A program made the translations under genes and the position numbers. From Aureimonas sp. Leaf324 (lineage in GTDB: Bacteria > Pseudomonadota > Alphaproteobacteria > Rhizobiales > Rhizobiaceae), in assembly GCF_001423245.1 (NCBI RefSeq), contig NZ_LMOH01000005.1, positions 1 through 64,000 of the forward strand: a stretch of 64,000 nt of DNA. The letters run 5' to 3'. Below, piece by piece: positions 24,925 to 43,861 of this stretch. How positions within the stretch are numbered: the stretch's first letter is position 1; every line of letters starts with the position of its first letter. The notes under the pieces were generated by a model. It was not told the DNA's origin, did not search any database, and saw only the letters and a list, made by a program, of their open reading frames with translations.

Positions 24925-26040
24925 CTATGCCGACTGGGGGATGATGTTGATCATGTCGTCCTCCGTGGGCTGCGTCGCGGACTTCAGCGTCAGCGCCTGA
25001 TCCGGCTCGACGGATCGCGTGCGCGTGCGCGGCTCCAACGACACCGTCTCGCCCGTGTCCAGCGACCGCGCCACCGCCTCGAGAACCCGCATGTCGAGAA
25101 GCCCCTCCTCGCCGTCCGCTTCCGGATGACTGTCGTTGAGGATGCAATCGGAGAAGTATTCCGTCTCGTTGCCGAACTGCTCGACCGGGTCGAAGCGGTG
25201 CTCGGTCTCCCCATCCTCGGTCTTCTCGACGTAAGCGATGCCGACCTTCGGCCCGAACATGAAGCACGGCGAGGCGTGGATGCTGGCGTTCCGGCCCACC
25301 AGGGTAAAGGACTCGGACGGGGCGGTTGCGTAACTGACGGTGAACTGCGCCAGCCGCTCTCCCGGGAAGCGCAGCGTCACCGCCACCGTGTCGTGGAAGT
25401 TGAAGCCGCGGCTCGGCGTCTTGGTGCCGACAGCATGGACGGCGACCGGCTCCTCGCCGAACAGGTTGCGCACCGCGTTCAAGGGATAGGTGCCCATGTC
25501 CGGCACGGGACCGCCCCAGTAGCCGTTGTGACCGCGCGAGTTCTCCTCGCGCACGTTCTGGGCGAAGGTCGAGGTGAAGTATCGCAACTCGCCGAACTCC
25601 CCCTTCCGGACTCGGGTGATCATCTCGACCGTGCCCGGCTCATGGTGGAGGCGGTACGCGATCATCAGCTTGGCACCTCCCTTGCGCTGCGCGGCGAGGA
25701 TCGCCGTGGCCTTCTCGACGCTCGAAGCCATCGGCTTCTCGAGCAGGACATGGATGCCCGCCTCGAGCGCAGGAACGGCATGGTCGCGGTGGAGGAAGTT
25801 CGGCGTCGCGACGTAGACGGCGTCGATCTCGCCGGACGCCAGCAGTTCGCCGTATTGCTCGTAGCTCCAGGCCTTGATGCCGTAATGCCCCGCCAGTTTC
25901 TCGGCCTTCACGGGGTCTCCCGTCACGAGAGCGGCCAGTTCCGAATTCCCGGTGCGCCCGATGCCGGGCATGAACGCCTGCTGCGAGATCTGTCCCCCGC
26001 CGACGACAGCTTAGCGAACCTTCTTCCTGCTTCCGAACAT
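24925..26040 (-). pseudogene. Gfo/Idh/MocA-family oxidoreductase with a nonsense codon at position 10
   Basis: Reading from ATG 26040 gives MFGSRKKVR, then TAA (26011-26013), then AVVGGGQISQQAFMPGIGRT in the same frame. The last part is the Rossmann NAD(P) motif of this family. Downstream, ATPNFLHRDHAVPALEAG, HVLLEKPM and the catalytic PDMGTYPLNAVRNLFG are intact to the stop at 24925. The family usually has Tyr at the stop position (VRYAVVG), so a single C-to-A change would explain it. Reinitiation at ATG 25971 would lack the nucleotide-binding glycines. The enzyme would have oxidised a sugar or cyclitol; it sits beside organophosphate-uptake genes. Confidence 0.88.
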
Positions 26041-26289
26041 GATGCCTTCCCGTGTTTCGTCGCGGTCGAGCCGCGTCGAGGTCGCAAGGCCTGGGAAGCC
26101 TGAATGTTCCCCTCCGCATGTGGGCGGCGGCGGCAAAGCCGTCGTCCGGGAGGTCGAGAAGCGCTTCGTCCGCATCGACCGAGGCCATCCGAAAATGCCC
26201 CTTCCGAGCTGCTCCAGAAAGATTGCCGTCCTCCCGAAAGCGGACATCGCCTAGGCTGCGTTGGCAGCCAATCCGCCGGATCGGGGGTC

Positions 26290-26865
26290 ATGCCAACGCT
26301 TCTCTTCATCAGCCACCCCGAGGTCGTCGTCGATCCCGCCACGCCGGTCGAACGATGGTCCCTCAGTCCAGCGGGCGTCGAGCGCATGCGCGCCTTCTCG
26401 CAGTCCCCGGTTGTGTCGGGTGTCCGATCGATCTGGTGCAGCACGGAAACGAAGGCGATCGAAGCCGCCGACATTCTCGCCGGGGCTCTCGGGCTCGGGG
26501 TTGGCCTGTCGCAGGACCTTGGCGAAAACGACCGCAGCGCGACCGGCTTCCTTCCCCCTGACGAGTTCGAGAGCGTCGCCGATGCGTTCTTCGCATCCCC
26601 CGCCGACAGCGTTCGCGGATGGGAGCGGGCCGTCGACGCGCAGGCCCGCGTCCGACGAGCCGTCGCCCGGATCGCAAACGATCACGAGGAAGGCGATCTG
26701 GCCATCGTCGCGCACGGCGCCGTCGGCACGCTGCTGTTCTGCGCCTTATCGGACACGCCGATTGCGCGCTCCGTCGACCAACCCTTCCAGGGGCATTTCT
26801 GGATCGCATCCCTTCCCTCGCTCGAACCGGTCGAGGGATGGATGCCGATTGCCCCCCGCATCTGA
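26290..26865 (+). CDS. Histidine phosphatase family protein with variant RHG motif
   Basis: The 191-residue product shows the histidine phosphatase order: LLFISHPEVVVDP at the N-terminus, IWCSTETKAIEAADILA (normally SSxxxRAxQTA), and AIVAHGAVGTLL for the second catalytic His. The usual RHG is SHP, keeping the nucleophile His but losing the Arg. I recall similar SHP/THP forms in rhizobial homologues, so this may be a subfamily rather than decay. GGGGG precedes ATG 26290. It lies between the broken dehydrogenase and the LacI gene and adds another phosphatase-like protein to the block. Confidence 0.75.
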   Translation: MPTLLFISHPEVVVDPATPVERWSLSPAGVERMRAFSQSPVVSGVRSIWCSTETKAIEAADILAGALGLGVGLSQDLGENDRSATGFLPPDEFESVADAFFASPADSVRGWERAVDAQARVRRAVARIANDHEEGDLAIVAHGAVGTLLFCALSDTPIARSVDQPFQGHFWIASLPSLEPVEGWMPIAPRI

Positions 26866-26987
26866 CCGTTCGCCGATCCACCGAGACCGCGTGGACCTGG
26901 CGAACCGGTTTCGACGCAGGTCCGCGGTTCGCATGTGCCTCTGCGTCGCTCTCGACGCACATGCCGCCGATGGTGTGGGAGGATCGA

Positions 26988-28058
26988 CTACAAAGCTCGC
27001 GCGACCGACGACCGCCATACGAGCGATGCCTCGAACACGCGATCCGCCGTCCCCTCGACGATCCCGTCCGCGACGATCCGCACCGTCCAGTCGGTGATGT
27101 CCTCGACGGGTTGCGCGAAGGTCGTCAGATCATACGACGCCCAGCCTGCCTGTTCGATGTCGTCGAAGCCGATCACCCCGACCTCGTCGGGTACGCGGCG
27201 ACGGAAGCGATGGCGAACGGCGTCCATGACCCCGCAGGCTAGAAGGTCGGTTACGGCGAAGACGGCATCGGGCGGATCATCGGATGAGAACAGCGCCGTC
27301 CCTCCCTGAAGTCCGCTCTCGTACGCCGTCGCGCCGCCTTCCCACACCGTGACGTCGGCCCCGGCCTCGGCGGCGGTGGCGATAAAGCACTCTCGCCGGG
27401 CCAAGAGGCTCGGAGTTCCGATCCCCGAAGTGACAAGGGCAAAACGCTTGTAGCCGGCCCGAACGAAGAGCGTCGCGGCCGTTCGGGCAGCGCGGGCGTT
27501 GTCGACCGAAAGGTTGACCGTGCCGGGCAGGTGATCGTTCCGGTTGAGAAGCACGAGGCGCTGGCCGCTGTCGAGGCAGCTTTGTGCGATCGAGCGGTAG
27601 GGTGTGCCGGAGAGAACGACGGTCGCATCGGCGCGATAGTTGAGCGTCTGGCGCAGCGCCCCCTCGACATTGCCGGAGGCCCTGCCGGCGTTCAGCACCA
27701 TCACGACCTTGCCGGCCTCCTGAAGCGATCGGGACAGGCTTTCGAGCAGTCGCGACAGGTAAGGCGTCTGGATGTCGGCGACGACGAGGCAGACGATCCC
27801 CGTCTGCTGGCGCATCAGCCCTCGCGCCAGATGGTTCACGTGATAGCCGAGTTCGGCCGCGGCCGCCTCGACCTTGGCGCGCGTGTCCGGCGAGATGCTC
27901 GCACCCGGCGTGAAGGCGCGAGACACGGCGGAACGAGACACACCGGCCAGCCGTGCCACCTCCTGCGCGCTTGCAAAGGCGGGTCCGCCCCCTCGGCCAT
28001 GCGTCGTCCTGCTCAGAGCCTCGATCTCCCTTTGCATCCCCGTGCACCGGCTTTCCAT
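26988..28058 (-). CDS. LacI-family regulator of the first organophosphate-type operon
   Basis: The helix-turn-helix AQEVARLAGVSRSAVSRAF and hinge ELGYHVNHLARGLMRQQTG are followed by a sugar-binding-protein-like effector domain (VIGFDDIEQAGWASYDLTTFAQP). Its recognition helix SRSAVSR is identical to that of the LacI protein at 42851-43861. The start is 28058 or 28037; upstream residues in the open frame are not conserved. It is divergent from the ABC operon at 28156. Two TTGCA..GTGCA sites in the shared region suggest it represses both that operon and itself. Confidence 0.9.
   Translation of the reverse strand: MESRCTGMQREIEALSRTTHGRGGGPAFASAQEVARLAGVSRSAVSRAFTPGASISPDTRAKVEAAAAELGYHVNHLARGLMRQQTGIVCLVVADIQTPYLSRLLESLSRSLQEAGKVVMVLNAGRASGNVEGALRQTLNYRADATVVLSGTPYRSIAQSCLDSGQRLVLLNRNDHLPGTVNLSVDNARAARTAATLFVRAGYKRFALVTSGIGTPSLLARRECFIATAAEAGADVTVWEGGATAYESGLQGGTALFSSDDPPDAVFAVTDLLACGVMDAVRHRFRRRVPDEVGVIGFDDIEQAGWASYDLTTFAQPVEDITDWTVRIVADGIVEGTADRVFEASLVWRSSVARAL
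28032..28047. promoter_or_regulatory. Imperfect second LacI operator overlapping the regulator start
   Basis: TTGCATCCCCGTGCAC differs at two positions from the form TTGCACNNNNGTGCAA seen at 28111-28126. It lies over the possible start codon of the LacI gene, 79 bases centre-to-centre from the better site, so it could serve autoregulation or looping. Confidence 0.4.
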
Positions 28059-28110
28059 GCAACCATGGCACTCCACTCCGCGGTTGACAATTCGGTACGT
28101 CCAGTTGAGC

Positions 28111-28126
28111 TTGCACAGCAGTGCAA
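28111..28126. promoter_or_regulatory. LacI-type operator upstream of the ABC operon
   Basis: TTGCACAGCAGTGCAA is an inverted repeat with 6-base arms and a 4-base centre, 30 bases before the substrate-binding-protein start. A TTGACA at 28084-28089 could be the -35 element, which would put the operator over or just past the -10 region. The arms match those at 42742-42773. Confidence 0.65.
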
Positions 28127-28155
28127 AGATGCTCACGATGCTGGGAGGCTCGACC

Positions 28156-29181
28156 ATGCGCACCAAACTTCTCGTCACGACCATTCTCTTCGGCGCGCTG
28201 GCAGCCGCCCTACCCGCCCGCGCCGCCGGAACGCTGAATCTCGTCTGCGCCGCCGACGTGAAGTGGTGCGAGCTGATGGAGCGGGAGTTCGAGGCGAGCC
28301 ACGACATCGACGTCAACATGGTCCGCATGAGTTCGGGCGAGGCTTACGCGCGCCTGCGTGCCGAGGCCCGCAATCCGAAGACCGACATCTGGTGGGCGGG
28401 CACGGGAGACCCGCATCTGCAGGCGGCCGACGACAACCTGACGCTGGAATACAAGTCGCCGATGCTGGACCAGCTCCAGCCCTGGGCACAGAAACAGGCG
28501 GAGGTTTCCGGCTACAAGACGGTCGGCGTCTACTCCGGCGCGCTCGGCTGGGGCTACAACACGCAGATCCTGGAGAAGAAGGGCCTCGCTGCACCCGCCT
28601 GCTGGAAGGACCTCACCGACGCCAAGTACAAGGGCGAGATCCAGATCGCCAACCCGAACTCGTCCGGCACCGCCTACACGGCGCTCGCCACACTCGTCCA
28701 GCTCATGGGCGAGGACGAGGCCTTCGCCTACCAGAAGGCGTTGAACGCCAATATCACGCAGTACACCAAGTCCGGCTCCGCACCGGTGAAGGCGGCGGCG
28801 CGCGGCGAGACCGGCATCGGCATCGTCTTCATGCACGATGCCGTCGCCATGACCAAGCAGGGCTTCCCGGTTGAGACCGTCGCCCCTTGCGAAGGCACCG
28901 GCTTCGAGGTCGGATCGATGTCGATCGTCAAGGGCGCCAAGAACCTCGAGAACGCCAAGGTCTTCTACGACTGGGCGCTGTCGCCCGAGGTGCAGTCGAA
29001 GGCTGCCGAGGCCGACAGCTTCCAGCTGCCGTCCAACAAGAGCGCGACCGTGCCGCCCGAAGCGCCCAAGCTCGATGACATCAAGCTGATCGACTACGAC
29101 TTCGCCAAGTACGGCAATGCCGAGACCCGCAAGGCGCTGCTCGAACGCTGGGACCGCGAGATCGGCGCCGCCGCCAACTGA
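28156..29181 (+). CDS. ABC transporter substrate-binding protein (iron(III)/sugar-phosphate type)
   Basis: This 341-residue protein has a signal peptide (MRTKLLVTTILFGALAAALPARA). The body, with GTLNLVCAADVKWCELMEREFE, KTDIWWAGTGDPHLQAADD and NPNSSGTAYTALATLVQLMG, matches the FbpA/AfuA-type fold. Members bind ferric iron, thiamine, phosphonates or, in AfuA, hexose phosphates. The iron-binding paired Tyr near the C-terminus is not seen (VFYDWALSPEVQS, LIDYDFAKYG), so a phosphorylated organic ligand is more likely. GGGAGG precedes ATG 28156. It is the first gene of the LacI-controlled operon. Confidence 0.88.
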   Translation: MRTKLLVTTILFGALAAALPARAAGTLNLVCAADVKWCELMEREFEASHDIDVNMVRMSSGEAYARLRAEARNPKTDIWWAGTGDPHLQAADDNLTLEYKSPMLDQLQPWAQKQAEVSGYKTVGVYSGALGWGYNTQILEKKGLAAPACWKDLTDAKYKGEIQIANPNSSGTAYTALATLVQLMGEDEAFAYQKALNANITQYTKSGSAPVKAAARGETGIGIVFMHDAVAMTKQGFPVETVAPCEGTGFEVGSMSIVKGAKNLENAKVFYDWALSPEVQSKAAEADSFQLPSNKSATVPPEAPKLDDIKLIDYDFAKYGNAETRKALLERWDREIGAAAN

Positions 29182-29242
29182 TCCAGCCTCGGCGGGCGCC
29201 GCATCGGTGCCCGCCATCCCCAGCATCCGGGAGGATCCGTCG

Positions 29243-31483
29243 ATGGATTCGCGCGTTCGCCGTCTCGATGGGGCCTTGGCTCTCGCCCTCGTCGCTTTCG
29301 CCGTCCTGCCCTGGTACGGGCTCGAGGGTGGCCTCTGGTCGCTCGGCTGGGCGCAGGACTGGCCGCTTTCGCCGGACGCGGCGCCGGGCCTTCTTCAGAT
29401 CGGCCTTCGCTCCGTTTTTTGGCTCGTGCCGCTCGGCCTCGCGATCGCCGCGGCCGTGGCGCTGCGCTTCGTCCCGCCCGGCGAGCGGCGGGGCCGATGG
29501 CTGGCTGCCGTCGGCGGCACCGGTCTCGCCCTCCTGATCACCGAAGGTCTGGCTGTCGGATACGGTGGCTGGAACTGGAGCGGCTGGGAGTCCCTGTTCG
29601 GCCCTCTGGAAGACGGCCAGCCGCCGTTCGGCCTCGGCGCCTTCGCTCTGGCTCTGGCGTTCCTTCTGTTTCTGACCTTCGGTCTGGCTGAGCGTGGACG
29701 CCTGCGCGGCGACGCGTTCGTGCTGTCGGCCATCGCGCTGGTGGTCGCGCTTGTCACCGCCTTCGTGCTGTACCCGCTCGCCAGCCTGTTTGTGGGCGCC
29801 TTCCAGGCCCTCGACGGATCCTTCGACGCCTCGAGCTTCCTCGCCAACATCCAGGATCCCTCGATCTGGTCGCTCGCCTGTCTGGCGGGCACGGGCAGTT
29901 GCGGCCTCGCCTGGCGCACGGTGACGCTCGCGATCTGCACGGGCCTCGGCACGACGATCCTCGGCCTTGCCTTCGCGCTCGTCGCCACGCGCACGGCCTT
30001 TCCCTTCAAGCGCCTGCTGCGCCTTCTCACCATCCTCCCCATCATCACGCCGCCCTTCGTGATCGGCCTCGCCCTGATCCTCCTGTTCGGCCGCTCCGGC
30101 GTCGTCACGCAGGGGCTTCTCACCCTGACCGGCCTCGATGGCGGACGCTGGCTCTACGGCCTTCCCGGCATCTGGATCGCGCAGATGCTGAGCTTCACGC
30201 CGATCGCCTTCATGGTGCTGATCGGCGTGATGGAGGGCATCAGCCCGGCGATGGAGGAAGCGGCGCAAACCATGCGGGCCAACCGCTGGCGCACGTTCTG
30301 GACCGTCACGTTCCCCCTGATGCGTCCGGGCCTCGCCAACGCCTTTCTCGTCGGCTTCATCGAGAGCATGGCCGACTTCGGCAACCCGCTGGTGCTCGGC
30401 GGCAGCCACGGCGTCCTGTCGACCGAAATCTTCTTTGCCGTCGTCGGCGCGCAGAACGATCCGGCCCGCGCCGCCGTCCTCGCGCTCGTCCTCCTCGGCT
30501 TCACCCTCTCCGCCTTCTTCCTTCAGCGCGTCTGGCTGCGTGGGCGCAGCTATACGACGGTCACCGGCAAGGGCGATTCCGGCCGCCATGTGCCCCTCGA
30601 TCCGAAGCTGCGGGCCGTCGTGGTGGGGGCGGTCTCGATCTGGGTGTTCTTCACGCTCACCGTCTACGCGATGATCGTCGCCGGCAGCTTCGTGCGCACG
30701 CTCGGCCTCGACAACACGCTGACGCTCGAACACTACGCCAAGGCCTTTTCGGTCTCGGCCGAAGACACCGGCCTTCGCTGGACGGGCGTTGCGTGGGATT
30801 CGTTCTGGACGACGATGGAGATCGCGCTGATCGCCGCGCCGCTCACCGCCCTCGTCGGCCTCCTGTCGGCCTATCTCCTGGTGCGCCAGCGCTTTGCCGG
30901 CCGGGAGGCGCTGGAATTCATGCTGATGCTGTCCTTCGCCATCCCCGGCACGGTGATCGGCGTGTCCTACGTCCTCGCCTTCAACCTGCCGCCGATCGAG
31001 ATGACCGGGACGGCGCTGATCCTCGTGATCTGCTTCGTGTTCCGCAACATGCCGGTCGGCGTGCGGGGTGGCATCGCGGCGATGAGTCAGCTCGACCGGA
31101 GCCTCGACGAGGCCTCGCTGACGCTGGGCGCCAACTCCTTCACGACGCTTCGCCGCGTCGTGCTGCCGCTGCTCAAGCCCGCCATCGTTGCAGCGCTGGT
31201 CTATTCGTTCGTGCGCTCGATCACCTCGATCAGCGCCGTCATCTTCCTCGTCAGCGCCCAGTACAACATGGCGACCTCCTACATCGTCGGCCTCACCGAA
31301 AACGGCGAATACGGCGTCGCCATCGCCTACTCCACCATGCTGATCGTCGTCATGATCTGCGTGATCGCGCTGTTCCAACTCGCGGTGGGCAAGCGCACGC
31401 TGCGGCGCGAGACCCGCAACGTCGCGCCGGCCGCCGCAGCCTCGGCGACCGCCGTCACGCTCTCGAAGGAGTCGCCCGCATGA
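29243..31483 (+). CDS. Fused two-domain ABC permease (FbpB/AfuB-like)
   Basis: This 746-residue permease contains two membrane domains, each with its own EAA loop: EEAAQTMRANRWRTFWTVTF near residue 340 and DEASLTLGANSFTTLRRVVL near 630. One polypeptide thus replaces a permease dimer, as in the ferric iron/sugar-phosphate family. An extra 150-residue hydrophobic N-terminal part (ALALALVAFAVLPWYGLEGG) precedes the first domain. GGGAGGA lies upstream of ATG 29243. The stop overlaps the ATPase start by ATGA. Confidence 0.93.
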   Translation: MDSRVRRLDGALALALVAFAVLPWYGLEGGLWSLGWAQDWPLSPDAAPGLLQIGLRSVFWLVPLGLAIAAAVALRFVPPGERRGRWLAAVGGTGLALLITEGLAVGYGGWNWSGWESLFGPLEDGQPPFGLGAFALALAFLLFLTFGLAERGRLRGDAFVLSAIALVVALVTAFVLYPLASLFVGAFQALDGSFDASSFLANIQDPSIWSLACLAGTGSCGLAWRTVTLAICTGLGTTILGLAFALVATRTAFPFKRLLRLLTILPIITPPFVIGLALILLFGRSGVVTQGLLTLTGLDGGRWLYGLPGIWIAQMLSFTPIAFMVLIGVMEGISPAMEEAAQTMRANRWRTFWTVTFPLMRPGLANAFLVGFIESMADFGNPLVLGGSHGVLSTEIFFAVVGAQNDPARAAVLALVLLGFTLSAFFLQRVWLRGRSYTTVTGKGDSGRHVPLDPKLRAVVVGAVSIWVFFTLTVYAMIVAGSFVRTLGLDNTLTLEHYAKAFSVSAEDTGLRWTGVAWDSFWTTMEIALIAAPLTALVGLLSAYLLVRQRFAGREALEFMLMLSFAIPGTVIGVSYVLAFNLPPIEMTGTALILVICFVFRNMPVGVRGGIAAMSQLDRSLDEASLTLGANSFTTLRRVVLPLLKPAIVAALVYSFVRSITSISAVIFLVSAQYNMATSYIVGLTENGEYGVAIAYSTMLIVVMICVIALFQLAVGKRTLRRETRNVAPAAAASATAVTLSKESPA

Positions 31484-32547
31484 GCCAGCCCGCCGCACGC
31501 AAGGGATCCGTCCGCTTCGAAGCCGTCGAGAAGCGTTTCGGGTCGGTCGTCGCCATCCGTTCGCTCTCCTTCGACATCGAGCCGGGAACGCTGGTGACGC
31601 TGCTCGGCCCCTCCGGCTGCGGCAAGACCACGACGCTGCGCATGCTGGCAGGCCTCGAACAGCCGACCGCCGGGCGCATCCTAATCGGCGGCCGGGACGT
31701 CACCAACCTTCCCGCCAACGAGCGCGACGTCTCGATGGTGTTTCAGTCCTACGCCCTCTTCCCGCACATGAGCGTCGGCGAGAACGTCGCCTACGGCCTA
31801 CGGTCGGGCGGCAGCTCCAAACGCGAAGCGCTGGAGCGAGGAAAGGAGGGTCTCGCGCTCGTCGGTCTGGCGGGCTTTGCCGACCGTCTGCCGAGCGAAC
31901 TGTCCGGTGGCCAGCAACAGCGCGTGGCCGTGGCGCGCGCTCTGGTGCTGGAGCCGCAGGTGCTGCTTCTCGACGAGCCGCTGTCCAATCTCGACGCGCG
32001 TCTGCGCCGCCATGTGCGCACCGAGATCCGCGAGCTGCAGCAGCGCCTCGGCTTCACCGCCGTCTACGTGACGCACGACCAGGAAGAGGCGCTGGCTGTC
32101 TCCGACCGGATCGTCGTGATGCAGGCCGGAGAGATCGCGCAGGCGGGTACGCCGCGAGAGCTTTACGAGACGCCGGCCTCCTCCTTCATCGCGGATTTCA
32201 TCGGCGAGGCGAATGTCGTCCCTTGCGAGGTCGCAAGGCGCTTGGACGGTGGACTGGAGGCCAGGCTCGGCGGCCTGCGCCATCCGATCCGGATGCCGGC
32301 CGCGCGCGAAGGCGCAGCGAAGCTCGCGATCCGCCCGAATGCGATGATCATCGGCGAGCCTCGTCCCGATCGCCTGGACGGGCGTGTCGCCAGCGCCGCC
32401 TATCTCGGCGACCACATCGAATACGAGGTCGAGACGGCGCACGGCCGCCTCTTCGTCGTCGACACCGCGATCGAGAACGTGCGCCCCGTTGCCAGCGATA
32501 TCGGCATCGGCCTGCATGAGCGCGGCGTCGCACTGATCCCTGCCTGA
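31480..32547 (+). CDS. ABC transporter ATPase (FbpC/AfuC-like, with regulatory domain)
   Basis: This 355-residue protein has Walker A GPSGCGKTT, Q-loop QSYALFPH, signature LSGGQQQR, Walker B VLLLDEPLSNLDA and switch VTHDQ. After about residue 240 a TOBE-like domain follows (AIRPNAMIIGEPRP, ASAAYLGDHIEYEVET). It energises the fused permease immediately upstream, with which it overlaps by four bases. Nothing in the motifs is altered. Confidence 0.94.
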   Translation: MSQPAARKGSVRFEAVEKRFGSVVAIRSLSFDIEPGTLVTLLGPSGCGKTTTLRMLAGLEQPTAGRILIGGRDVTNLPANERDVSMVFQSYALFPHMSVGENVAYGLRSGGSSKREALERGKEGLALVGLAGFADRLPSELSGGQQQRVAVARALVLEPQVLLLDEPLSNLDARLRRHVRTEIRELQQRLGFTAVYVTHDQEEALAVSDRIVVMQAGEIAQAGTPRELYETPASSFIADFIGEANVVPCEVARRLDGGLEARLGGLRHPIRMPAAREGAAKLAIRPNAMIIGEPRPDRLDGRVASAAYLGDHIEYEVETAHGRLFVVDTAIENVRPVASDIGIGLHERGVALIPA

Positions 32548-32555
32548 GAGAGCTT

Positions 32556-33371
32556 ATGTCTGACACGATCGAACACGCCGATACCGCGGTCGCAGATCGC
32601 CAGAGGCTCGCCGAAGCCATCGCCCGCGAGGGCGGGCGCATCGCGCTCGGCTATTTCCGCGACCGCTCGCGCCTGACGATCGACCAGAAGACGAGCGGTC
32701 AGGACGTCGTCTCGATCGCCGACAAGGAGGTGGAGACGCTGCTGCGCGAGCGCATCGCGGCACGCTTCCCCGACGACGGCCTGCTCGGCGAGGAATACGG
32801 TCTTCAGGAGGGGACGTCCGGTTTTCGCTGGGTGATGGACCCGATCGACGGAACCAGCCCCTTCGTGTTCGGCATCCCCGCCTGGTGCGTATCGATCGCG
32901 ATCATGCGGGGCGAGGCGATCGTGGCCGGCGTCATCTACGCGCCCACCACCGACGAGCTCTACTCCGCCCGGCGCGGCGCCGGCACGACGCTGAACGGCC
33001 ATCGCGTCCAGGTCGCCGAGGCCGCAACGCTCCAGACCGGCATCCTCGGCCTCGGCGCCAACCACCGCGTTCCCAGCAAGGTCGTCTCGGGCGTCATCGA
33101 GCAGCTTCTCGACGAGGGCGGCATGTTCGTGCGCAACGGGTCCGGCGCGCTGATGCTGGCCTATGTCGCGGCGGGACGTTTGGTGGGCTACTGGGAGCCG
33201 CACATGAACGCCTGGGACTGCTATGCCGGGTTTTTGCTGGTCGAGGAGGCCGGCGGCTGGTTCTCCGATCCGTCGAGCTGGGTTCGCATGATCGACGGCG
33301 GCGCCGTCGTCGCAGGTTGCCCCGGCGTGAAGGCGGACCTCCTGCGCATCGTCGAGGCACACGCCGTCTGA
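32556..33371 (+). CDS. Inositol monophosphatase-family phosphatase (first copy)
   Basis: The 271-residue enzyme has the family's metal sites: GEEYG (Glu), WVMDPIDGTSPF (two Asp) and WDCYAGFLLVEEAGG. These Mg-dependent phosphatases remove phosphate from inositol phosphates, sugar phosphates, histidinol phosphate or PAP. It starts eight bases after the ATPase stop and is clearly part of the transport operon. I infer that it dephosphorylates the imported compound. It has a paralogue in the second operon (41890-42726). Confidence 0.9.
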   Translation: MSDTIEHADTAVADRQRLAEAIAREGGRIALGYFRDRSRLTIDQKTSGQDVVSIADKEVETLLRERIAARFPDDGLLGEEYGLQEGTSGFRWVMDPIDGTSPFVFGIPAWCVSIAIMRGEAIVAGVIYAPTTDELYSARRGAGTTLNGHRVQVAEAATLQTGILGLGANHRVPSKVVSGVIEQLLDEGGMFVRNGSGALMLAYVAAGRLVGYWEPHMNAWDCYAGFLLVEEAGGWFSDPSSWVRMIDGGAVVAGCPGVKADLLRIVEAHAV

Positions 33372-35190: not shown

Positions 35191-35223
35191 GCGCCCCGTC
35201 CTGTTCGAGATCCGTTCCCCGCC

Positions 35224-36867: not shown

Positions 36868-37466
36868 GCCTTGGCGCCCTCGATCAGGTCGATCCAGTCG
36901 GAAGCCTTGCGGGCCGCGTCGTAGAGCATGGGCTTGGGCGTCTCGAACCATTCGTCGGGCCTCAGCTCGCGCTTGTCGCGGATATGGGCGACGGCGGCGT
37001 CCAGCGTTGGGAAGCGGTCCGGCTGCTGGCGGTGGAGATAGAGGGCGACGAGCGAGACCGAGCGGCTGCGCCCGCTGCGGCAATTGACGAGGACGTTGCC
37101 GCCGTCGGGATAGGGATAGGTCTCGCGCCTCGGCAGTCTCTGATGCAGTGCCCCGTGCAGGATGTAGTAGGCGCCGAGCATCATCGTGTCCGGGCTGCCG
37201 CCGCCGTCGATCATGCCGAGCTTGTAGTAGCGGATGTCGGAAAAGCCGGTGGCGCAGAGATCGCCCTCTTCCGGGTTGGCGGGACGGCGCACGAAGTTGA
37301 CGTCGAGATTGACCGCGCAGTTGACGACGATGCCGATGCCGTGGGCGCGCAGCAGCGACAGATCCCGCGCGCCTTCGAGGCCGCCGATGTAGAGCTTGCT
37401 ATCGAAGGGGCCGAGCCCTTCGGTGATGAGGCTGATCGCCGGGCGGGCGTAGACGGGTGCGTCCAT
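36864..37466 (-). CDS. Dual-specificity/tyrosine-type phosphatase
   Basis: The 200-residue protein has the cysteine-phosphatase P-loop VNCRSGRSRS (Cys plus Arg five residues on), with Asn replacing the usual His before Cys. The N-terminal LYIGGLEGARDLSLLRAHGI is typical of the DSP fold. Members may act on phosphoproteins or on phospho-sugars and inositol phosphates. It lies between the ATPase and the phosphoesterase, coupled to the latter by ATGA, so a substrate linked to the imported compound is plausible. Confidence 0.82.
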   Translation of the reverse strand: MDAPVYARPAISLITEGLGPFDSKLYIGGLEGARDLSLLRAHGIGIVVNCAVNLDVNFVRRPANPEEGDLCATGFSDIRYYKLGMIDGGGSPDTMMLGAYYILHGALHQRLPRRETYPYPDGGNVLVNCRSGRSRSVSLVALYLHRQQPDRFPTLDAAVAHIRDKRELRPDEWFETPKPMLYDAARKASDWIDLIEGAKA

Positions 37467-37512
37467 GTCGGTTCCTTTCGGGCGAAGGGATGCCCCTCGC
37501 CCCGTCGTGCGG

Positions 37513-38640
37513 TCAGGCGGCGTCGACGTGGCGCGTGAGCGTCGTCACGGGCCGGGCGATGCCGCCCGTCGCGGGGTCGAACACCATGACGCCGGCCGGA
37601 TCGAGTTCCAGCCAGACCTTGCGGCTCGGCCACGCCTCCACGAAACGTGGGATGAGGGCGGTCATCGCCGTCCCGCGCGCCGAGAGCGAGAGGATGGTCT
37701 GCGAGCCCGTCGGCTGCACGACGTCGACCTCGGCCGGCAGCGTGTTGGCGGTCGGCCGGTCGTGCAGCGTCAGCCGCTCGGGGCGGATCGCGACGCGCAC
37801 GGGACCCGCCGTTTGGGCCAGCATGTAGGGTAGCACGATCTCGGTTTCGCGCAGGCGCAGGACGCTGCGCCCGTCGCGCTCGAAGAGTTCGCCGTCCAGG
37901 AGATTGACGCGGGGATCGCCGATGAACTCGGCGACGAAGAGATTGGCGGGCTGGTGGTAGATCTCGTAGGGGCTGCCGATCTGCTGGATCACCCCGTCCT
38001 TCATCACCACGATGATGTCGGACATGGTCAGCGCCTCGACCTGGTCATGCGTGACGTAGATCGTGGTGGCGCCGAGATCTCGCGACAGGCGCTTCAGCTC
38101 GGTGCGCATCTCGGTGCGCAGCACCGCGTCGAGATTCGACAGCGGCTCGTCCATGAGAAGGATCGCGTTGCGCGCGGCGATCAGCCGGGCGACGGCGACG
38201 CGCTGCTGCTGGCCGCCCGACAATTCGGACGGGAAGCGCTCGCCGCAGCCCTGGAGCTGGACCTTCTGCAGCGCCTCGGCCAGCCGCTCGGAAATCTCGG
38301 CCTTGGGCCGCCCCGCCTGCGACAGCGCGAGCGTGATGTTGCGGTCCACCTTCATGTTGGGCCAGAGCGCGTAGCTCTGGAAGATGAAGCCGAGGCCGCG
38401 CTTTTCCGGCGGCACGAAATGGCCGGTCTCGCCGGAATAGACGGTTCGCCCGCCGAGCGAGAGTTCGCCCGACGAGGGCTGTTCGAGCCCGGCGATGATG
38501 CGCAGCGTCGTCGTCTTGCCGCAGCCGGAGGGCCCGAGCAGCGTGACGAACTTGCCCTTCGGGATCTCCAGGTCGAGCGGGGGAATGGCGAGATGGCCGC
38601 CGTAGGATTTGGTGATGCCCTTCAGGGTGACTTCGCTCAT
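37513..38640 (-). CDS. ABC transporter ATPase of second organophosphate-type system
   Basis: The 375-residue protein has Walker A GPSGCGKTT, Q-loop QSYALWPNM, signature LSGGQQQR, Walker B LLMDEPLSNLDA and switch VTHDQ, then a TOBE-like tail (AIRPERLTLHDRP). It resembles the ATPase at 31480 and should power the permease encoded at 39987-41816. That permease has a nonsense codon, so the ATPase may now be without its partner unless it serves the first system. Confidence 0.93.
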   Translation of the reverse strand: MSEVTLKGITKSYGGHLAIPPLDLEIPKGKFVTLLGPSGCGKTTTLRIIAGLEQPSSGELSLGGRTVYSGETGHFVPPEKRGLGFIFQSYALWPNMKVDRNITLALSQAGRPKAEISERLAEALQKVQLQGCGERFPSELSGGQQQRVAVARLIAARNAILLMDEPLSNLDAVLRTEMRTELKRLSRDLGATTIYVTHDQVEALTMSDIIVVMKDGVIQQIGSPYEIYHQPANLFVAEFIGDPRVNLLDGELFERDGRSVLRLRETEIVLPYMLAQTAGPVRVAIRPERLTLHDRPTANTLPAEVDVVQPTGSQTILSLSARGTAMTALIPRFVEAWPSRKVWLELDPAGVMVFDPATGGIARPVTTLTRHVDAA

Positions 38641-38726
38641 GGTCTTCTCCCAGGATCGGCTAGAGGGGGTCGTCTGGCGCGGACGCCGCTGGGACCGGGC
38701 GGCGCGGCCCGGTCCCAGCGCGTCGG

Positions 38727-39953
38727 TCAGTTGCTCGTCTCGTAGATCCAGAAGTCGTTGACGGCGGCGACGTTGTCGCGCTGGAACTCGGCCGAGCCGA
38801 AGATCTTGCGCACCTCCGGCCAGTTCTCGCCGCCCGGGGGCAGCGGAACGTCGGTGCGCGGCGAGAAGGTGCCGACCTTGAAATAGCTCGCCAGTCCCTG
38901 GAGCTTCTGGAGGCTCTCGCCCTCGCGATAGGGCTTGTCGAGCCTCGTCTCGCGCGTCAGGTCCTTCGGCCCCATCTGGAAGGCGATGAAGAGCTTGGCG
39001 GCGTTGGGGTGCGGCGCGCGGCCGGCGATCCCGACATAGGTGGAATAGGCGTAGACCCCCGCCGGATCGACGTCGGTGAGGATCTCGTTGGCATAGTCGT
39101 CGCTGGCGTTCTTGCCGATGTAGTGCATCGAGGAGAAGGTGATGGGCGGGCTGGACTGACCCTTCAGACCGGAGGCCGTCGCCAGCTTCGAGCCGGAATC
39201 GTAGATCACGAGGTCGTTCTGCAGCAGGCGGTGCAGGAACTCGTAGCCTGCGTTCTCGCTGCCGTCCGACAGCTCGATCGGCTTGCCGGCATGCTTCTCG
39301 TAGGCCGCGGCGAAGTCGTCCGCATGCTCGACGATTGAGGTGAGGAGCGCGAGCGAGGTCAGCGAGCCGAGCGGGCTCTTCATCGCGAACCGCTTGTTCC
39401 AGTCCGGCTCGGTGAGCTGCCAGACGTTGGTGATGGGCGGTGCGTCCTTGTAGGTGTCGGCATTGTACATGAGGGTCGTCGCCTCGACGACGTGGGTGAG
39501 CAGCGGCTCGCGCAACTCCTGCGGGATCTTGTCCACGAGGTAGCGCGGCACGTAGTTCACCACCCGACCGTTCGGCACCATGTCGAAGAACATCTGGGCG
39601 GTGCCGGCGGTGTTCACGACGTCCACCGCGTAGACGCCGGCCTGGTGCTCGCGCACCACCTTCTCAATCGTCTTCTCCGAGCCGAGGTCATAGGCGTTGA
39701 CCTTGATCTCCGGATAGAATTTGCGGAAATCCTCGGCGAGCGCGTTCACGCCGGAGGACGACGAGTAGATCGTGACCTCGCCCTCCTCCTTGGCCTTGCG
39801 GATGATCTCGTCCCAGTTCTCCTCCGCCGGCTGGTCGGCGCCGAGTTCGGCGCTCTTCAGCCAGGCCTCGAACTCTGCCCCTTGGGCCAGGGCCGGCGAT
39901 GCGGTCAGGACCGCAAGGGCAAGCGTCGCCAGTGATATGCGAAGGCGCGTCAT
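38727..39953 (-). CDS. ABC transporter substrate-binding protein of second organophosphate-type system
   Basis: The 408-residue precursor has a signal peptide (MTRLRISLATLALAVLTASPALA) and a family-1, iron(III)-type body. This includes GEVTIYSSSSGVNALAEDFRK, YPEIKVNAYDLGSEKTIEKVV and FKVGTFSPRTDVPLPPGG. It is some 65 residues longer than the first system's binding protein and only distantly similar, so its ligand may differ. It lies 33 bases after the permease and 86 before the ATPase. Confidence 0.9.
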   Translation of the reverse strand: MTRLRISLATLALAVLTASPALAQGAEFEAWLKSAELGADQPAEENWDEIIRKAKEEGEVTIYSSSSGVNALAEDFRKFYPEIKVNAYDLGSEKTIEKVVREHQAGVYAVDVVNTAGTAQMFFDMVPNGRVVNYVPRYLVDKIPQELREPLLTHVVEATTLMYNADTYKDAPPITNVWQLTEPDWNKRFAMKSPLGSLTSLALLTSIVEHADDFAAAYEKHAGKPIELSDGSENAGYEFLHRLLQNDLVIYDSGSKLATASGLKGQSSPPITFSSMHYIGKNASDDYANEILTDVDPAGVYAYSTYVGIAGRAPHPNAAKLFIAFQMGPKDLTRETRLDKPYREGESLQKLQGLASYFKVGTFSPRTDVPLPPGGENWPEVRKIFGSAEFQRDNVAAVNDFWIYETSN

Positions 39954-39986
39954 CGTCGTTTCCTCCCTTGTTTCGAGACCGCCTCC

Positions 39987-41816
39987 TCAAGCGAATCCCA
40001 TCTTCGTGTTCTTGAAGACCAGCCGGAACAACAGGTTGCAGCCGACCACGAGGCCGACGAGCAGGAGCGTCGCGGCGCCGATCAGCTGGGGCACGTCGTC
40101 CGTCTGGTAGGTGTAGATCACGCTGGCGAGCACGGCCGTCGACGGCGTGACGAGAAGGATGATGAGGGACAACTCGCGCATCGTACCGATGAAGGAGAGC
40201 AGCATGCCGGACACGAGGCCGGAGGCGGCGAGCGGGGCGATGATGCGCCGGATCCGGCCGAACCAGCCGATGCCCTGGACGCGCGCCGACTCCTCCAGAG
40301 ACTTGTCGATCTGCAGCATGGCGGCGATGCCGGTGCGCGAGGTGTAGGGCAGGTTCTTGACCGCCGCGATCAGGACCAGCAGCGCGAAGGTTCCGTAGAG
40401 CGCCGGGATCGGGCCGACGGGCTTGGAGAACATGCCGATATAGATCGCCCCGAAGGCCACGGCCGGGAAGATGTACGGCAGGAAGGCCGCCATCTCGAGG
40501 GCGCGCGAGGACAGGGTGCCGCGCGTGCGCACTACGACATAGCCGATCAGGAAGCCGAGGACGCCCGTGGCGAGCGCGGTGAAGAAGGCGAGGCGCAGGC
40601 TGTTCCAGGCGGCATTCAGGATCTGCGGGTTCTGGAAGACGCCGGCATAAAGCGCGTTCACCCCGCCCCGCTCGCCGATCCAGTAGTGCAGCGTCAGGTT
40701 GGTGAGGTCGTAGTTGCCCGCCGTGCGCGACAGCGACTGGAGCACGAGGAGCCCGAGCGGCAGGACCACCGTCGCGCACATCAGGAGGACGACGAGGCCG
40801 AAGACCAGCCAGCGGGCGCGCCCGAGATCGATCTCGCGCCGACGGAAGCCCTTGCCGGACATGGTCACGAAGCTCTTGCGCACGCCGATCATGCGCTGGT
40901 TGATCCAGATGAAGAGCACCGCCATGACGACGAGGACGAGCGCCAGGAGATAGCCGTCGCCGACATTGCGCGAGCCGATGGCGGCGTAGATCTGGGTCGG
41001 CAGCACGAAGTAGCGGATCGGCATGCCGAGCACCGCGGGCGTTCCGAAGGAGCCGATGACGCGGATGAAGGTCATCACCACGGCCGACCCGACGGCGGGC
41101 AGCACGAGCGGCATGGTGATCGAGACGAACTGCCGGAAGCGCGACATGCCGGCGATCGCCCCCGCTTCCTCCAGTTGGCTGTCCACGGTGGAGAGCGAGC
41201 CGGAGATGATGAGGAAGCCGTAGACGTAGTAGTGCAGCGACAGGCAGATGATGATCGGCACGGCGCCGAAGGCGAGCCAGTCGGGCGGCTGGACGCCGAA
41301 GAGATAGACGAAGACGCCGGACGCGCCGCCGATGCGGTCGTTCTTGAAGAAGGTCACCCAGGCGAGCGCCATAACCCAGGACGGCAGCATGTAGGGCAGG
41401 ACGACCGCCGTGTTGACGAACTCGCGGAACGGCACGTTGGTGCGCACCACGACCCATGCGAGGACCCCGCCGAGCGTCAGGCAGATCGCGGTGGCGCCGA
41501 AGGCGGTGATCAGCGAGTTGAAGAAGGGCTTTTAGAAGAGCGCCCAGGACATGCGCCCGGAAAAGACGCGCTCGTAGTGAAACCAAGTCAGCTCGCCGGG
41601 CTGCCGGCCCGGCAGATAGGCCGCGTCGTACGGCTGGACGGTCACCGTCTCGCGCACCAGCTGGAACAGCGGCACGATGACGAGTAGGCCGAGGACGACC
41701 GCCAGCACCAGCGCGATCAGGCGTTCGGGCGCCGTGAAGAAACGGGCCACGCGGCGTGCGTGCCGTCCGTCGGGGCCGCGACGCCCCCTCCCCTCGACAT
41801 GTTCGACCGTGACCAT
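39987..41816 (-). pseudogene. Fused ABC permease interrupted by one nonsense codon
   Basis: From ATG 41816 (preceded by GGGAGG) the frame reads MVTVEHVEGRGRRG, a first membrane helix, then RVFSGRMSWALF and TAA at 41532-41534. It continues in the same frame KPFFNSLITAFGATAICL through two EAA loops (EEAGAIAGMSRFRQFVSITM, EESARVQGIGWFGRIRRIIA) to the stop at 39987. A single C-to-A change of a Tyr codon would explain it. The rest is undamaged at about 609 residues, so the loss is recent or could be a sequence error. Restart at GTG/ATG further in would omit the first helix. Confidence 0.88.
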
Positions 41817-41889
41817 GCTTTTCCTCCCAGACGGCGTGGACGAGCCGTGTTCCTCCCGAGCCGGGGCGTCGTTGCCCCGGCCGCCGCCC

Positions 41890-42726
41890 TCAGGCGGCTT
41901 CCGTCTCCATGCCGATGCGCAGGTTCGGAGCCAGCGGAATGCCGGCGGCGGCGGAAACCGCCTCGGCGACACCGGGGGCGGCCGCCAGGACCGGCCCGCC
42001 ATCCTGCAGCGAGCCGAGTTCGAGATAGGGGCAGACCCGACCGCCGGCTTCGGCGACGATCAGGAGGCCGGGCACGCAGTCCCAGGCGTTCATGTGCAGC
42101 TCGGCATAGCCGTCCGACCGTCCGTCGGCGACATAGGCGAGCCCCAGCGCGCCGGACGCGCCGCGCCGCACGTTCGCCCCCTTCTCCAGAAGCTTCGCCG
42201 TCACAGCGAGATAGGCTTCGTTGGGAACGCGCGTGGACCAGCCGAGCTCGACCGAGGCCGCCTCGAAGCTGCGCGTCGACGCGCAGGCGATCGGCCGGCC
42301 GTTGCGCGTGGCGCCCCCGCCTGCCTGCGCGAAGTGCAACTCGTCGAGCGCCGGATTGTAGATCGCGCCGAACCGCGGCACGCCGCCTTCGAGATAGCCG
42401 ATCGAGATGCAGAAATGGGGAATGCGCCGGGCGAAGTTCGCCGTGCCGTCGATCGGATCGACCACCCAGACCCGATCGAGGATCTCGCCGCCGCCCTCCT
42501 CCCCAAAGAAGCCGTCGCCGGGAAAGGCGCCTGCGATCACGGAGCGGATGTGGGCTTCCGATGCGGCATCGGTCTCGGTCAGGAAGTCCTGCGGCCCCTT
42601 CATCGAGAAGGCGGCGACATCGGAGCGGAAGGCGGCGAGCACCAGCGCGCCGGCCGAGCGGATGACGTCGTGGCAGAGCCGGACGCGGCCGCCGAGATCG
42701 TCGGAGTACGGCGCTTTGGATTTCAT
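41890..42726 (-). CDS. Inositol monophosphatase-family phosphatase (second copy)
   Basis: The 278-residue enzyme retains FFGEEGGG, VWVVDPIDGTANF and NAWDCVPGLLIVAEAGG, the metal and phosphate-binding sites of the family. It is the first structural gene of the second operon, 73 bases ahead of the permease. GGGGG precedes ATG 42726, and the tandem LacI operators begin only 16 bases upstream of the start. Pairing of an IMPase with the same transporter class in both operons indicates a shared type of substrate. Confidence 0.9.
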   Translation of the reverse strand: MKSKAPYSDDLGGRVRLCHDVIRSAGALVLAAFRSDVAAFSMKGPQDFLTETDAASEAHIRSVIAGAFPGDGFFGEEGGGEILDRVWVVDPIDGTANFARRIPHFCISIGYLEGGVPRFGAIYNPALDELHFAQAGGGATRNGRPIACASTRSFEAASVELGWSTRVPNEAYLAVTAKLLEKGANVRRGASGALGLAYVADGRSDGYAELHMNAWDCVPGLLIVAEAGGRVCPYLELGSLQDGGPVLAAAPGVAEAVSAAAGIPLAPNLRIGMETEAA

Positions 42727-42741
42727 GACATCCCCCGGTCT

Positions 42742-42773
42742 TGCACACGTGTGCACAATTGCACACGTGTTCA
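42742..42773. promoter_or_regulatory. Two tandem LacI operators
   Basis: TGCACACGTGTGCA (42742-42755) is a perfect 14-base palindrome. TGCACACGTGTTCA (42760-42773) is the same site with one mismatch, 18 bases centre to centre, so on the same DNA face to within about a third of a turn. They sit between the LacI gene and the IMPase gene, right before the IMPase ribosome binding site, and share TGCAC..GTGCA arms with the operator at 28111. Confidence 0.75.
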
Positions 42774-42850
42774 TTGACGGCAACAGCCTTTTCAACGCTG
42801 GGTTATTCTTGATGCCTTGAGCATGAGAGGAAGGCGGCCGCGGTGACCGT

Positions 42851-43861
42851 TCAGGCTGGAACGGCTTCGGCCATCACCCGCGCCGTGGCGCGCTCGATCA
42901 AGGTCACCGGGATGGTGCGGATGGTCGCCTGCTCCGCGGTGTGGTCGAGCGCGGCAAGCACCGCATCCGTCAGGGCCTCGAACGGTTGGGCGACCGTCGT
43001 CAGCCGGTAACTCGCCCAGGATGCCTGCGGAATGTCGTCGAAGCCGATCACCGACACGTCTTCCGGCACGCGGCGGCCGAGATCGTGGCGCGCGGCGTCG
43101 AGGAAGCCGAGGGCCAGAAGATCGGTGACGCAGAAGACGCCGTCGATCGAAGGGTCGGCCAGGACTGAATGAGCGGCAGCGGCGCCCGTCTCGTAGCTCG
43201 TCACCGAACCCTCCCAGACCGCGGTCTCGACGCCCCGCTCGGCCATCACGCGTATGAAGGTCTCGGCACGGCGCGTCTGGGTCGGCGTGCGGCTGCCGCT
43301 GCGCACCACGGCCGCCTTGCGGCACCCGCCCGCGAGAAGACGCTCGGCGACCAGCGTGCTGCCGTGGACATCGTCGCTGAGGATCATGTCGGTGTCCGAG
43401 CGATCGAGAAGCCGGTTGATGACGATGAGCTTCACCCCGTTGGCGAGGCACTCCTCGACGATGGAGGACGGCGGCTCCCCGGACAGGACGACGATGGCGC
43501 GGGCCCGAAATTCGAAGATCAGGTCGATGAGCGGGGCGATGTCGCTGCGCGCATCGGCGGCGTTGAGCAGAAGACATTGCTGGCCGCGGCGCAGGAGCGC
43601 GAGGCTCAGCATGTCGAGCTGCTTGGCGATGAAGGGCGAGGACAGGTTGGCGCCCACGACCCCCACGAGGTTGGAGCTCGAGTTGTTGAGCGTCTGTGCC
43701 AGCCGGTTGACCCGGTAGCCGAGCGCCTGCGCCGCCGCCAGAACCTTCTCGCGCACCTCGTTCGAGACGCTTGCGCCCTCGGTGAACGTCCGGGACACCG
43801 CCGACCGAGACACACCCGCCCGGCGGGCGACGTCGGAGGCAGTGACGAATGGCTTGGCCAT
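42851..43861 (-). CDS. LacI-family regulator of the second organophosphate-type operon
   Basis: The 336-residue protein has the helix-turn-helix ASDVARRAGVSRSAVSRTF and hinge ALGYRVNRLAQTL. The effector domain ends VIGFDDIPQASWASYRLTTVAQP, closely similar to the LacI at 26988. The start at 43861 (MAKPFVTASDV) is preferred; residues upstream in the frame are not conserved. It is transcribed toward its operon, with the tandem operators between. It is likely a paralogue of the first regulator, able to bind similar sites. Confidence 0.92.
   Translation of the reverse strand: MAKPFVTASDVARRAGVSRSAVSRTFTEGASVSNEVREKVLAAAQALGYRVNRLAQTLNNSSSNLVGVVGANLSSPFIAKQLDMLSLALLRRGQQCLLLNAADARSDIAPLIDLIFEFRARAIVVLSGEPPSSIVEECLANGVKLIVINRLLDRSDTDMILSDDVHGSTLVAERLLAGGCRKAAVVRSGSRTPTQTRRAETFIRVMAERGVETAVWEGSVTSYETGAAAAHSVLADPSIDGVFCVTDLLALGFLDAARHDLGRRVPEDVSVIGFDDIPQASWASYRLTTVAQPFEALTDAVLAALDHTAEQATIRTIPVTLIERATARVMAEAVPA

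Follow-up and report, generated by a model that had tools for sequence, protein, structure and literature searches.

Two loci in the window, i.e. the whole 64,000-nucleotide stretch of DNA analysed here, probably form a single LacI-controlled regulon for the uptake of phosphorylated inositol and its conversion to free inositol. The sequence basis of this assignment is gene content, an AfuA-type binding pocket, a common operator, recurrent linkage to phosphatases, and linkage to inositol-catabolic (iol) genes in some lineages; the exact ligands, the enzyme chemistry, the order of steps and the export direction of NptA we infer. Locus 1 (26988-33371) and locus 2 (33541-43858) of this relative of plant-associated species each comprise a LacI regulator, an ABC importer with fused permease and an inositol-monophosphatase family protein (IMPase). 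A first-pass annotation had proposed such a pair of LacI-controlled loci, and all genes named there are present and belong to the families it gave:

26988-28064, minus strand: LacI1, LacI family (Pfam LacI HTH and Peripla_BP_3 over cut-off; SRSAVSR helix), divergent from the SBP1 operon
28112-28125: predicted LacI operator TGCACAGCAGTGCA, one of three exact TGCACNNNNGTGCA sites in the 4.4-Mb genome
28156-29181, plus strand: SBP1, AfuA-class periplasmic binding protein (match to AfuA structures, E 2.8e-94; 14 of 16 AfuA contact positions kept)
29243-31483, plus strand: fused ABC permease of locus 1 (two Pfam BPD_transp_1 stretches)
31480-32547, plus strand: ABC ATPase of locus 1 (Pfam ABC_tran, TOBE_2)
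32556-33371, plus strand: IMPase 1, inositol-monophosphatase family (Pfam Inositol_P 175.7 bits, cut-off 27; GEE and DPIDGT motifs)
33541-35190, minus strand: NptA-PhoU Na/Pi carrier (TIGR01013 356 bits, cut-off 306.15; Pfam PhoU domain)
35224-36867, minus strand: metallophosphoesterase, GpdQ/Lmo2642-like fold
36864-37466, minus strand: cysteine phosphatase, DSP-like (CX5R motif CRSGRSR; Pfam DSPc 29.8 bits, below the cut-off of 33.5)
37513-38640, minus strand: ABC ATPase 2 (Pfam)
38727-39953, minus strand: SBP2, binding protein of the iron/metal-citrate/AfuA fold (by fold)
39987 to about 41820, minus strand: fused ABC permease 2 (Pfam on the part after the stop; 5' end uncertain)
41890-42696, minus strand: IMPase 2, inositol-monophosphatase family (Pfam Inositol_P 181.9 bits, cut-off 27)
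42742-42755: predicted LacI operator TGCACACGTGTGCA, from the motif search of the genome and relatives
42760-42773: second tandem predicted operator, one mismatch, 18 bp from the first
42851-43858, minus strand: LacI2 regulator (Pfam LacI HTH 43.1 bits, Peripla_BP_3 80 bits; SRSAVSR helix)

The GEE and DPIDGT sequences of IMPase 1 are motifs of its family. The extra genes ascribed to locus 2 were recovered as a phosphoesterase and an NptA-PhoU carrier, whereas the cysteine phosphatase is labelled DSP-like only, because its CX5R motif is accompanied by a DSPc score under the cut-off. The gene set had also been drawn from 24925 onwards. The segment from there to about 26052 is a separate Gfo/Idh/MocA oxidoreductase gene interrupted by an in-frame TAA (26011-26013); it resembles IolG at 24-30%, and its IolG score of 90.4 bits falls short of the cut-off of 355. 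In locus 2, the permease gene likewise contains one in-frame TAA (41532-41534), at a place uninterrupted in four distinct relatives, and locus 2 may therefore be broken in this strain.

Both loci are predicted to belong to one LacI-controlled regulon, with repression and an inducer as the presumed mode of control. The translations of LacI1 and LacI2 share the recognition helix SRSAVSR, as had been noticed earlier, and an TGCACNNNNGTGCA operator common to both loci lies upstream of each. With at most one mismatch, this pattern precedes 40 of 40 related IMPase genes, compared to 5 of 800 random windows. Sites between the LacI and SBP1 genes recur in the relatives' loci L040 and L123, and tandem copies spaced 17-18 bp are found in many relatives. 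Over the whole window, five sites were found with one mismatch allowed (1.88 expected; 3 of 100 shuffles reach five), a mild enrichment. The third exact site of the genome, on contig C12, is accompanied by what appears by eye to be a CBS-domain-like reading frame; it was not retained as a regulon member, as no link to the uptake system was seen. Control by PhoB was also considered and dropped: a window search for Pho-box-like sites gave none near the loci at up to three mismatches and a sole match at 10748.

The loci were originally proposed to be paralogous, but their two binding proteins cannot be counted as close paralogues; SBP2 has only the fold in common with SBP1, which is AfuA-class. 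In SBP1, all seven residues of the AfuA phosphate site are identical (Ser37, Gly38, Thr60, Ser148, Gly149, Thr150 and Gly185), and the ring-coordinating His205, Asp206 and Glu229 correspond to H227, D228 and E251. The two contacts not kept are Ser9 and Thr11, replaced by A32 and D34; at the Thr11 position, 66 of 72 further family members have Gln or Asp. Of 397 genomes sampled from the order, 88 contain a member of this family, whose nearest curated models and relatives carry the names of iron, phosphonates or hexose phosphates. FbpA-type ferric binding proteins possess an adjacent pair of iron-binding Tyr residues. A motif search revealed no such pair in SBP1, as previously remarked, nor in SBP2. 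Transport of Fe(III), metal-citrate, thiamine or 2-aminoethylphosphonate, as suggested by automatic annotation, appears highly improbable on these grounds. The fold of SBP2 gives HitA, MctA and AfuA as equal matches, which makes it uninformative as to ligand, and SBP1 does match PhnS2; still, the locus 1 proteins stay under the NCBIfam cut-offs for PhnS2, PhnU2 and PhnT2 (203.8/392.75, 289.7/593.25 and 375.9/457.7 bits), SBP1 is also below the thiamine cut-off of 93.4, and phosphatases are frequent company of these transporters. Fe(III) and 2-aminoethylphosphonate were rejected as substrates accordingly.

The residues kept in SBP1 bind hexose phosphates in AfuA itself, as described in the consulted excerpts of the AfuABC paper (PMC4546632), and V. 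cholerae VcA0625 (8x1a), which bears the title of a G6P binding protein, comes close to AfuA in similarity. Both systems could then be hexose- or heptose-phosphate importers like AfuABC, with the IMPases acting as general sugar phosphatases and the iol genes as merely frequent neighbours. We consider this unlikely, given the changed Ser9 and Thr11 contacts, the superfluous dephosphorylation (imported glucose 6-phosphate does not need it) and the genomic associations described in the following, although most SBP1 regions lack a close iol gene.

In 49 of 60 fetched regions an IMPase is situated no more than 8 kb from the SBP1 transporter, in 45 of them on the same strand. Absence of the phosphatases from most relatives, which had been named as speaking against the idea, is thus not what was observed. 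The remaining 11 regions, some on short contigs, include seven from IolB-positive genomes, defined by an IolB match with E up to 1e-30. Relatives repeatedly combine LacI with IMPase, cysteine phosphatase and phosphoesterase. Co-occurrence was counted at 80 loci collected by phosphoesterase search: 41 have any core partner, 38 of these both cysteine phosphatase and IMPase, and 33 of the 38 also the NptA carrier. As the loci were found via the phosphoesterase, these counts are silent on the frequency of that gene itself, relatives of which also occur in polysaccharide clusters. A phosphoesterase tree did not yield one functional clade; the best split misplaced 12 of 81 sequences, and those with core partners were not monophyletic. 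The cysteine phosphatase was rejected as a wide marker: it has matches at 1e-20 in 20 of 397 genomes, and at 55% identity or above in only seven, the present genome included. Among those seven, IolB lies within 16 kb of it in two genomes and 33 kb off in a third.

Linkage to inositol catabolism was evaluated across the same order. IolB-positive genomes account for 73 of 88 with SBP1 versus 94 of 309 without (not corrected for phylogeny), a strong association that disfavours hexose phosphates. All 49 IMPase-linked systems reside in genomes with inositol-catabolic genes: 47 are IolB-positive, and for the remaining two (L209, L213) the fetched region itself contains IolG and IolD matches at 84-85%. 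At closer range, IolB is found within 25 kb of SBP1 in at least nine of the 73 genomes having both, and clear IolG, IolD or IolB matches fall inside eight of the 60 SBP1 regions. Six of these eight share an arrangement that likewise argues against hexose phosphates, with SBP1 preceded on its own strand, at about 2 kb, by an IolG-like gene, and the IMPase between them. The linkage concerns a minority of loci and is not seen in this window, where iolB, iolC, iolD and iolE gave no match at 1e-6; the IolB of this genome is encoded outside it, on contig C1. Import of a phosphorylated polyol followed by internal dephosphorylation, the original proposal, is supported by the comparative genomics, and it is through the iol linkage that the polyol is made concrete as inositol.

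The metallophosphoesterase has the class III metallophosphodiesterase fold (GpdQ, Lmo2642) with conserved metal ligands present, its model being nearest to Lmo2642, a zebrafish dimetal phosphatase, GpdQ and Rv0805, and it may be described as a putative phosphodiester hydrolase. Since GpdQ is a glycerophosphodiesterase, the resemblance would also suit a system importing phosphodiesters without inositol, for example glycerophosphodiesters or agrocinopine-type plant sugar phosphodiesters, cut by this enzyme and then by the IMPase. The division of labour would be that of agrocinopine catabolism, and most phosphoesterase loci show no iol gene in the fetched flanks: clear iol matches occur at 2 of 80 (flanks up to 10 kb), and the S. 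meliloti locus is flanked by PdxA and a four-carbon acid sugar kinase instead. We nonetheless regard this explanation as very unlikely, as AfuA and P5PA hold a ring phosphomonoester and the phosphoesterase set has iol genes beside it at four loci from three genera. Neorhizobium SHOUNA12A has an uninterrupted same-strand run of iolG, IMPase, cysteine phosphatase and phosphoesterase; in Aureimonas sp. ME7, of the same genus as the present strain, NptA is adjoined by iolG, iolC, iolD and iolE; and two genomes of one further genus have stretches in which both transporter types occur together with iol genes, phosphoesterase, NptA, cysteine phosphatase, LacI and IMPase.

Under the preferred assignment to phosphorylated inositol, SBP1 and its ABC importer would take up an ester resembling inositol monophosphate. 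SBP2 and its importer may handle a bulkier form, perhaps one with a phosphodiester head group (glycerophosphoinositol or cyclic inositol phosphate) or inositol with more than one phosphate. The metallophosphoesterase would open the diester inside the cell, the cysteine phosphatase take off extra phosphates and the IMPases the last one; specificity in the IMPase family is often broad. Free inositol would enter the Iol pathway, and NptA-PhoU would perhaps discharge surplus phosphate. This last step is drawn by analogy: E. coli-type YjbB is described as able to export Pi upon overexpression and as not sufficient for import.

Inositol phosphates make up a major pool of organic phosphorus in soil. 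Their dephosphorylation by bacteria is commonly assumed to be extracellular. If the proposed regulon is real, it would represent a little-known recycling route for an organic form of phosphorus that soils commonly contain. Importer, internal phosphatases, Iol pathway and perhaps exporter would explain both carbon use of inositol phosphates and phosphate release by plant-associated bacteria, and the large AfuA-like family would gain a testable ligand. In a more speculative version, which we put forward tentatively and hold to be possible but doubtful, Hyphomicrobiales would take up plant phosphoinositol head groups whole (glycerophosphoinositol, cyclic inositol phosphate, inositol bis- or trisphosphates) via two kinds of importer, dismantle them with three dedicated internal phosphatases, burn the inositol, and return the phosphate to soil or plant via an operon-encoded exporter.

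Several known systems are related in part. Agrocinopine catabolism (acc genes) combines ABC import of a phosphate ester, a phosphodiesterase and then an IMPase-like phosphatase; it works alike, but its transporter and phosphodiesterase belong to other families and it has no NptA. No paper demonstrating ABC import of inositol phosphates was found in the open-licence PMC literature, mostly surveyed by listing. The likeness to the AfuABC hexose/heptose-phosphate transporter (PMC4546632, in excerpts) extends to binding-protein family, phosphate- and ring-binding residues and ABC architecture; conversely, the altered Ser9 and Thr11, the IMPase partner and the iol linkage set SBP1 apart, and a term search of the main text of that paper returned neither "inositol" nor "phosphatase". 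The P5PA pyridoxal-5'-phosphate transporter illustrates that the AfuA fold accepts a phosphomonoester beyond hexose phosphates; according to extracts of its description (PMC8427247), P5PA has Ala in place of AfuA Asp206 and Glu229, whereas SBP1 retains Asp and Glu. LacI-type inositol regulators exist, IolR among them in seven groups (PMC4052901, in part), and the Caulobacter paper, in the sections consulted, suggests a HlyB-family transporter as a possible mover of inositol phosphates (PMC2597717). The cluster counts of a survey of inositol catabolism (PMC9430895, in excerpts) omit transporters without homology to characterised inositol carriers, and a term search of its main text returned no word beginning with "ABC" or "phosphatase". 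As far as these partial sources describe them, myo-inositol catabolic clusters (PMC9430895; PMC2597717) share iolG, iolC, iolD, iolE, iolB and an RpiR-type regulator, genes that are found beside the present ones in several relatives, whereas their transporter family differs from the one here.

The two loci are oriented towards each other in the window, within a genome of 4.4 Mb in 30 contigs, and their gene families were assigned via Pfam and NCBIfam as follows:

26988-28064, minus strand: LacI1, regulator of locus 1
28156-33371, plus strand: SBP1 (AfuA-class binding protein), then fused permease, ATPase and IMPase (inositol-monophosphatase-family phosphatase) of locus 1
43858 down to 33541, all minus strand: LacI2, IMPase, fused permease, SBP2 (binding protein of the iron/metal-citrate/AfuA fold), ATPase, cysteine phosphatase, metallophosphoesterase and NptA-PhoU Na/Pi carrier (NptA) of locus 2, in this order

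The cysteine phosphatase has the CX5R motif, yet its Pfam DSPc score of 29.8 falls below the cut-off of 33.5. The permease gene of locus 2 contains a single in-frame TAA (41532-41534). As the same position is uninterrupted in four distinct relatives (alignment of five loci, L036 and L049 being one contig; a sixth, L050, yielded no reading frame), locus 2 may be non-functional in the window strain, unless the assembly is wrong. A second in-frame TAA (26011-26013) is located in a Gfo/Idh/MocA gene, about 15 kb from that of the permease, and both codons may represent real mutations or assembly errors. Outside the operon, a PGAM-like histidine-phosphatase gene (26308-26865) adjoins LacI1; a 60% match to it lies 7.8 kb from SBP1 in one related region (L202).

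SBP1 was detected in 88 of 397 genomes drawn from the order (E up to 1e-60), and the surrounding regions were retrieved for 60 of the remaining 87, chiefly those with the highest scores. An IMPase (≥35% identity over 110 residues) is found within 8 kb of SBP1 in 49 of these regions, in 45 on the same strand; some of the 11 regions without it are on short contigs. NptA is present in six of the 60. Relatives of the metallophosphoesterase were collected by scanning named genomes with a five-sequence alignment, keeping the best 80 of at least 474. IMPase, cysteine phosphatase or LacI2 occurs at 41 of these best 80 loci, with both phosphatases at 38 of the 41; NptA accompanies the pair in 33 cases and the fused permease in 35. 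The two LacI-controlled phosphatase/importer loci described in the first-pass annotation are real and conserved in relatives, and with the IMPase linkage and phosphatase pairing at these frequencies its proposal, import of a phosphorylated polyol or phosphodiester followed by dephosphorylation, stands. Some SBP1 regions differ in their surroundings: L186, L188, L196 and L198 carry a DUF1045 (LigT-like, “phn operon”) gene close to SBP1 and IMPase (family checked in L186), and in L165-L170, L175 and L176 SBP1 is joined by a second binding protein, with an upstream sensor kinase and response regulator replacing LacI (families checked in L166).

The importer next to the phosphatase core varies between loci. 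It can be of the SBP2 type seen in the window (e.g. L050, L052, L060, L091, L099), be of the SBP1 type (L123, and L040 from the genus of the window) or, as in S. meliloti, Ensifer and several Agrobacterium, carry two or three binding proteins; one core has two importer types (L088). Such interchangeability around one core suggests a single chemical class of substrate. The other 39 of the best 80 phosphoesterase loci have none of IMPase, cysteine phosphatase and LacI2, and several lie in apparent polysaccharide clusters. As distant relatives (e.g. L078, L095, L104, L121, L131; representatives checked) are located near UDP-sugar dehydrogenase, glycosyltransferase, deacetylase or Methyltransf_17 genes, the metallophosphoesterase family may have another role there.

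The genome contains three copies of the predicted LacI operator, TGCACNNNNGTGCA, compared to one of the reversed control pattern. Of the three, one separates LacI1 from SBP1 and another precedes the IMPase of locus 2 (IMPase 2), with a further, one-mismatch copy 18 bp on. Allowing one mismatch, the whole window contains five sites versus 1.88 expected; since 3 of 100 shuffles also attained five, the pattern alone is weak, and position and conservation carry the argument. An IMPase 2 orthologue is present at 40 of the best 80 phosphoesterase loci, and all 40 are preceded by a site (≤1 mismatch, ≤120 bp upstream), 26 by two or more, although these are not independent events because the sequences are related. 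Among 800 windows of 119 bases taken at random from these loci, 5 contained a site. Together with the sites before SBP1 in L040 and L123, this conservation supports a putative single regulon for both loci. LacI-type inositol regulators are on record (PMC4052901).

The substrate can be narrowed, with moderate confidence and by gene context, to a phosphorylated inositol. Eight of the 60 SBP1 regions (L206, L209, L213, L215, L216, L217, L219, L221) contain clear matches to the myo-inositol catabolic (iol) proteins IolG, IolD or IolB, with IolG and IolB passing the NCBIfam cut-offs in L206. In six of the eight, SBP1 follows an IolG-like gene of the same orientation at ~2 kb, and the IMPase lies in between. 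IolB (E up to 1e-30) was found in 167 of the 397 genomes, in 161 above the family cut-off. It is present in 73 of 88 genomes with SBP1 versus 94 of 309 without (Fisher p 6e-19, kinship of genomes ignored), and by coordinates lies within 25 kb of SBP1 in at least 9 of the 73, where about one is expected by chance (our own estimate, genomes of ~5 Mb). IolB-positive genomes hold 47 of the 49 IMPase-linked SBP1 loci versus 7 of the 11 unlinked ones (Fisher p 0.008); therefore, the inositol association is stronger with a linked IMPase. The two exceptions (genomes G148 and G363) encode IolG and IolD within the region fetched around SBP1 and IMPase.

The gene set of locus 2 is likewise linked to iol genes in some relatives. 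Aureimonas sp. ME7 combines parts of both loci on one strand, in the order permease 1, ATPase 1, IMPase 1, IMPase 2, permease 2, SBP2, ATPase 2, cysteine phosphatase, phosphoesterase and NptA; a partial match to LacI separates the two IMPases. NptA is followed by iolG, on the opposite strand, and by iolC, iolD and iolE, with IolG, IolC and IolD above their cut-offs. In Neorhizobium sp. SHOUNA12A, iolB, iolE, iolD, iolC and an RpiR-type regulator run in one direction, and iolG, IMPase, cysteine phosphatase and phosphoesterase, then LacI and importer, in the opposite one. Two genomes of one genus, G278 (L225 with L204) and G381 (L226 with L214), show a single stretch over adjacent fetched regions with iol genes, phosphoesterase, NptA, cysteine phosphatase, LacI, IMPase, and multi-binding-protein and SBP1 importers. 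Several observations count against the inositol link, however. Clear iol matches were found, within the fetched flanks, at only 2 of the best 80 phosphoesterase loci; upstream of the phosphatase operon, S. meliloti pSymB instead encodes PdxA and a four-carbon acid sugar kinase, together with an iron-containing alcohol dehydrogenase (L130, 6276-12152); and none of iolB, iolC, iolD and iolE has a match in the 64-kb window. The sole IolG-like gene there is the interrupted Gfo/Idh gene (24–30% identity), and IolB is encoded elsewhere in the genome. Inositol is probably the product of the pathway.

In genomes G017 and G057, more distant SBP2-type importers (33–37% identity) are accompanied by a histidine phosphatase and a SIS-type regulator, to which one G017 locus adds NptA (Pfam families for the L041 pair, other loci by eye):

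L041, 4214-11412: SBP2-like importer, SIS-type (RpiR) regulator, histidine phosphatase and NptA
L042, 8189-14009: SBP2-like importer, SIS-type (RpiR) regulator and histidine phosphatase
L045, 8371-13873: SBP2-like importer, SIS-type (RpiR) regulator and histidine phosphatase

These loci probably constitute another phosphate-ester uptake system. In the open-licence PMC literature, no description of the gene combination or of phosphorylated inositol as its ligand was found. The AfuA paper counts 121 homologues in alpha- and betaproteobacteria and regards the family as sugar-phosphate carriers (PMC4546632), and a Caulobacter study proposes an HlyB-family transporter as a possible inositol phosphate carrier (PMC2597717). 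The component parts are already known.
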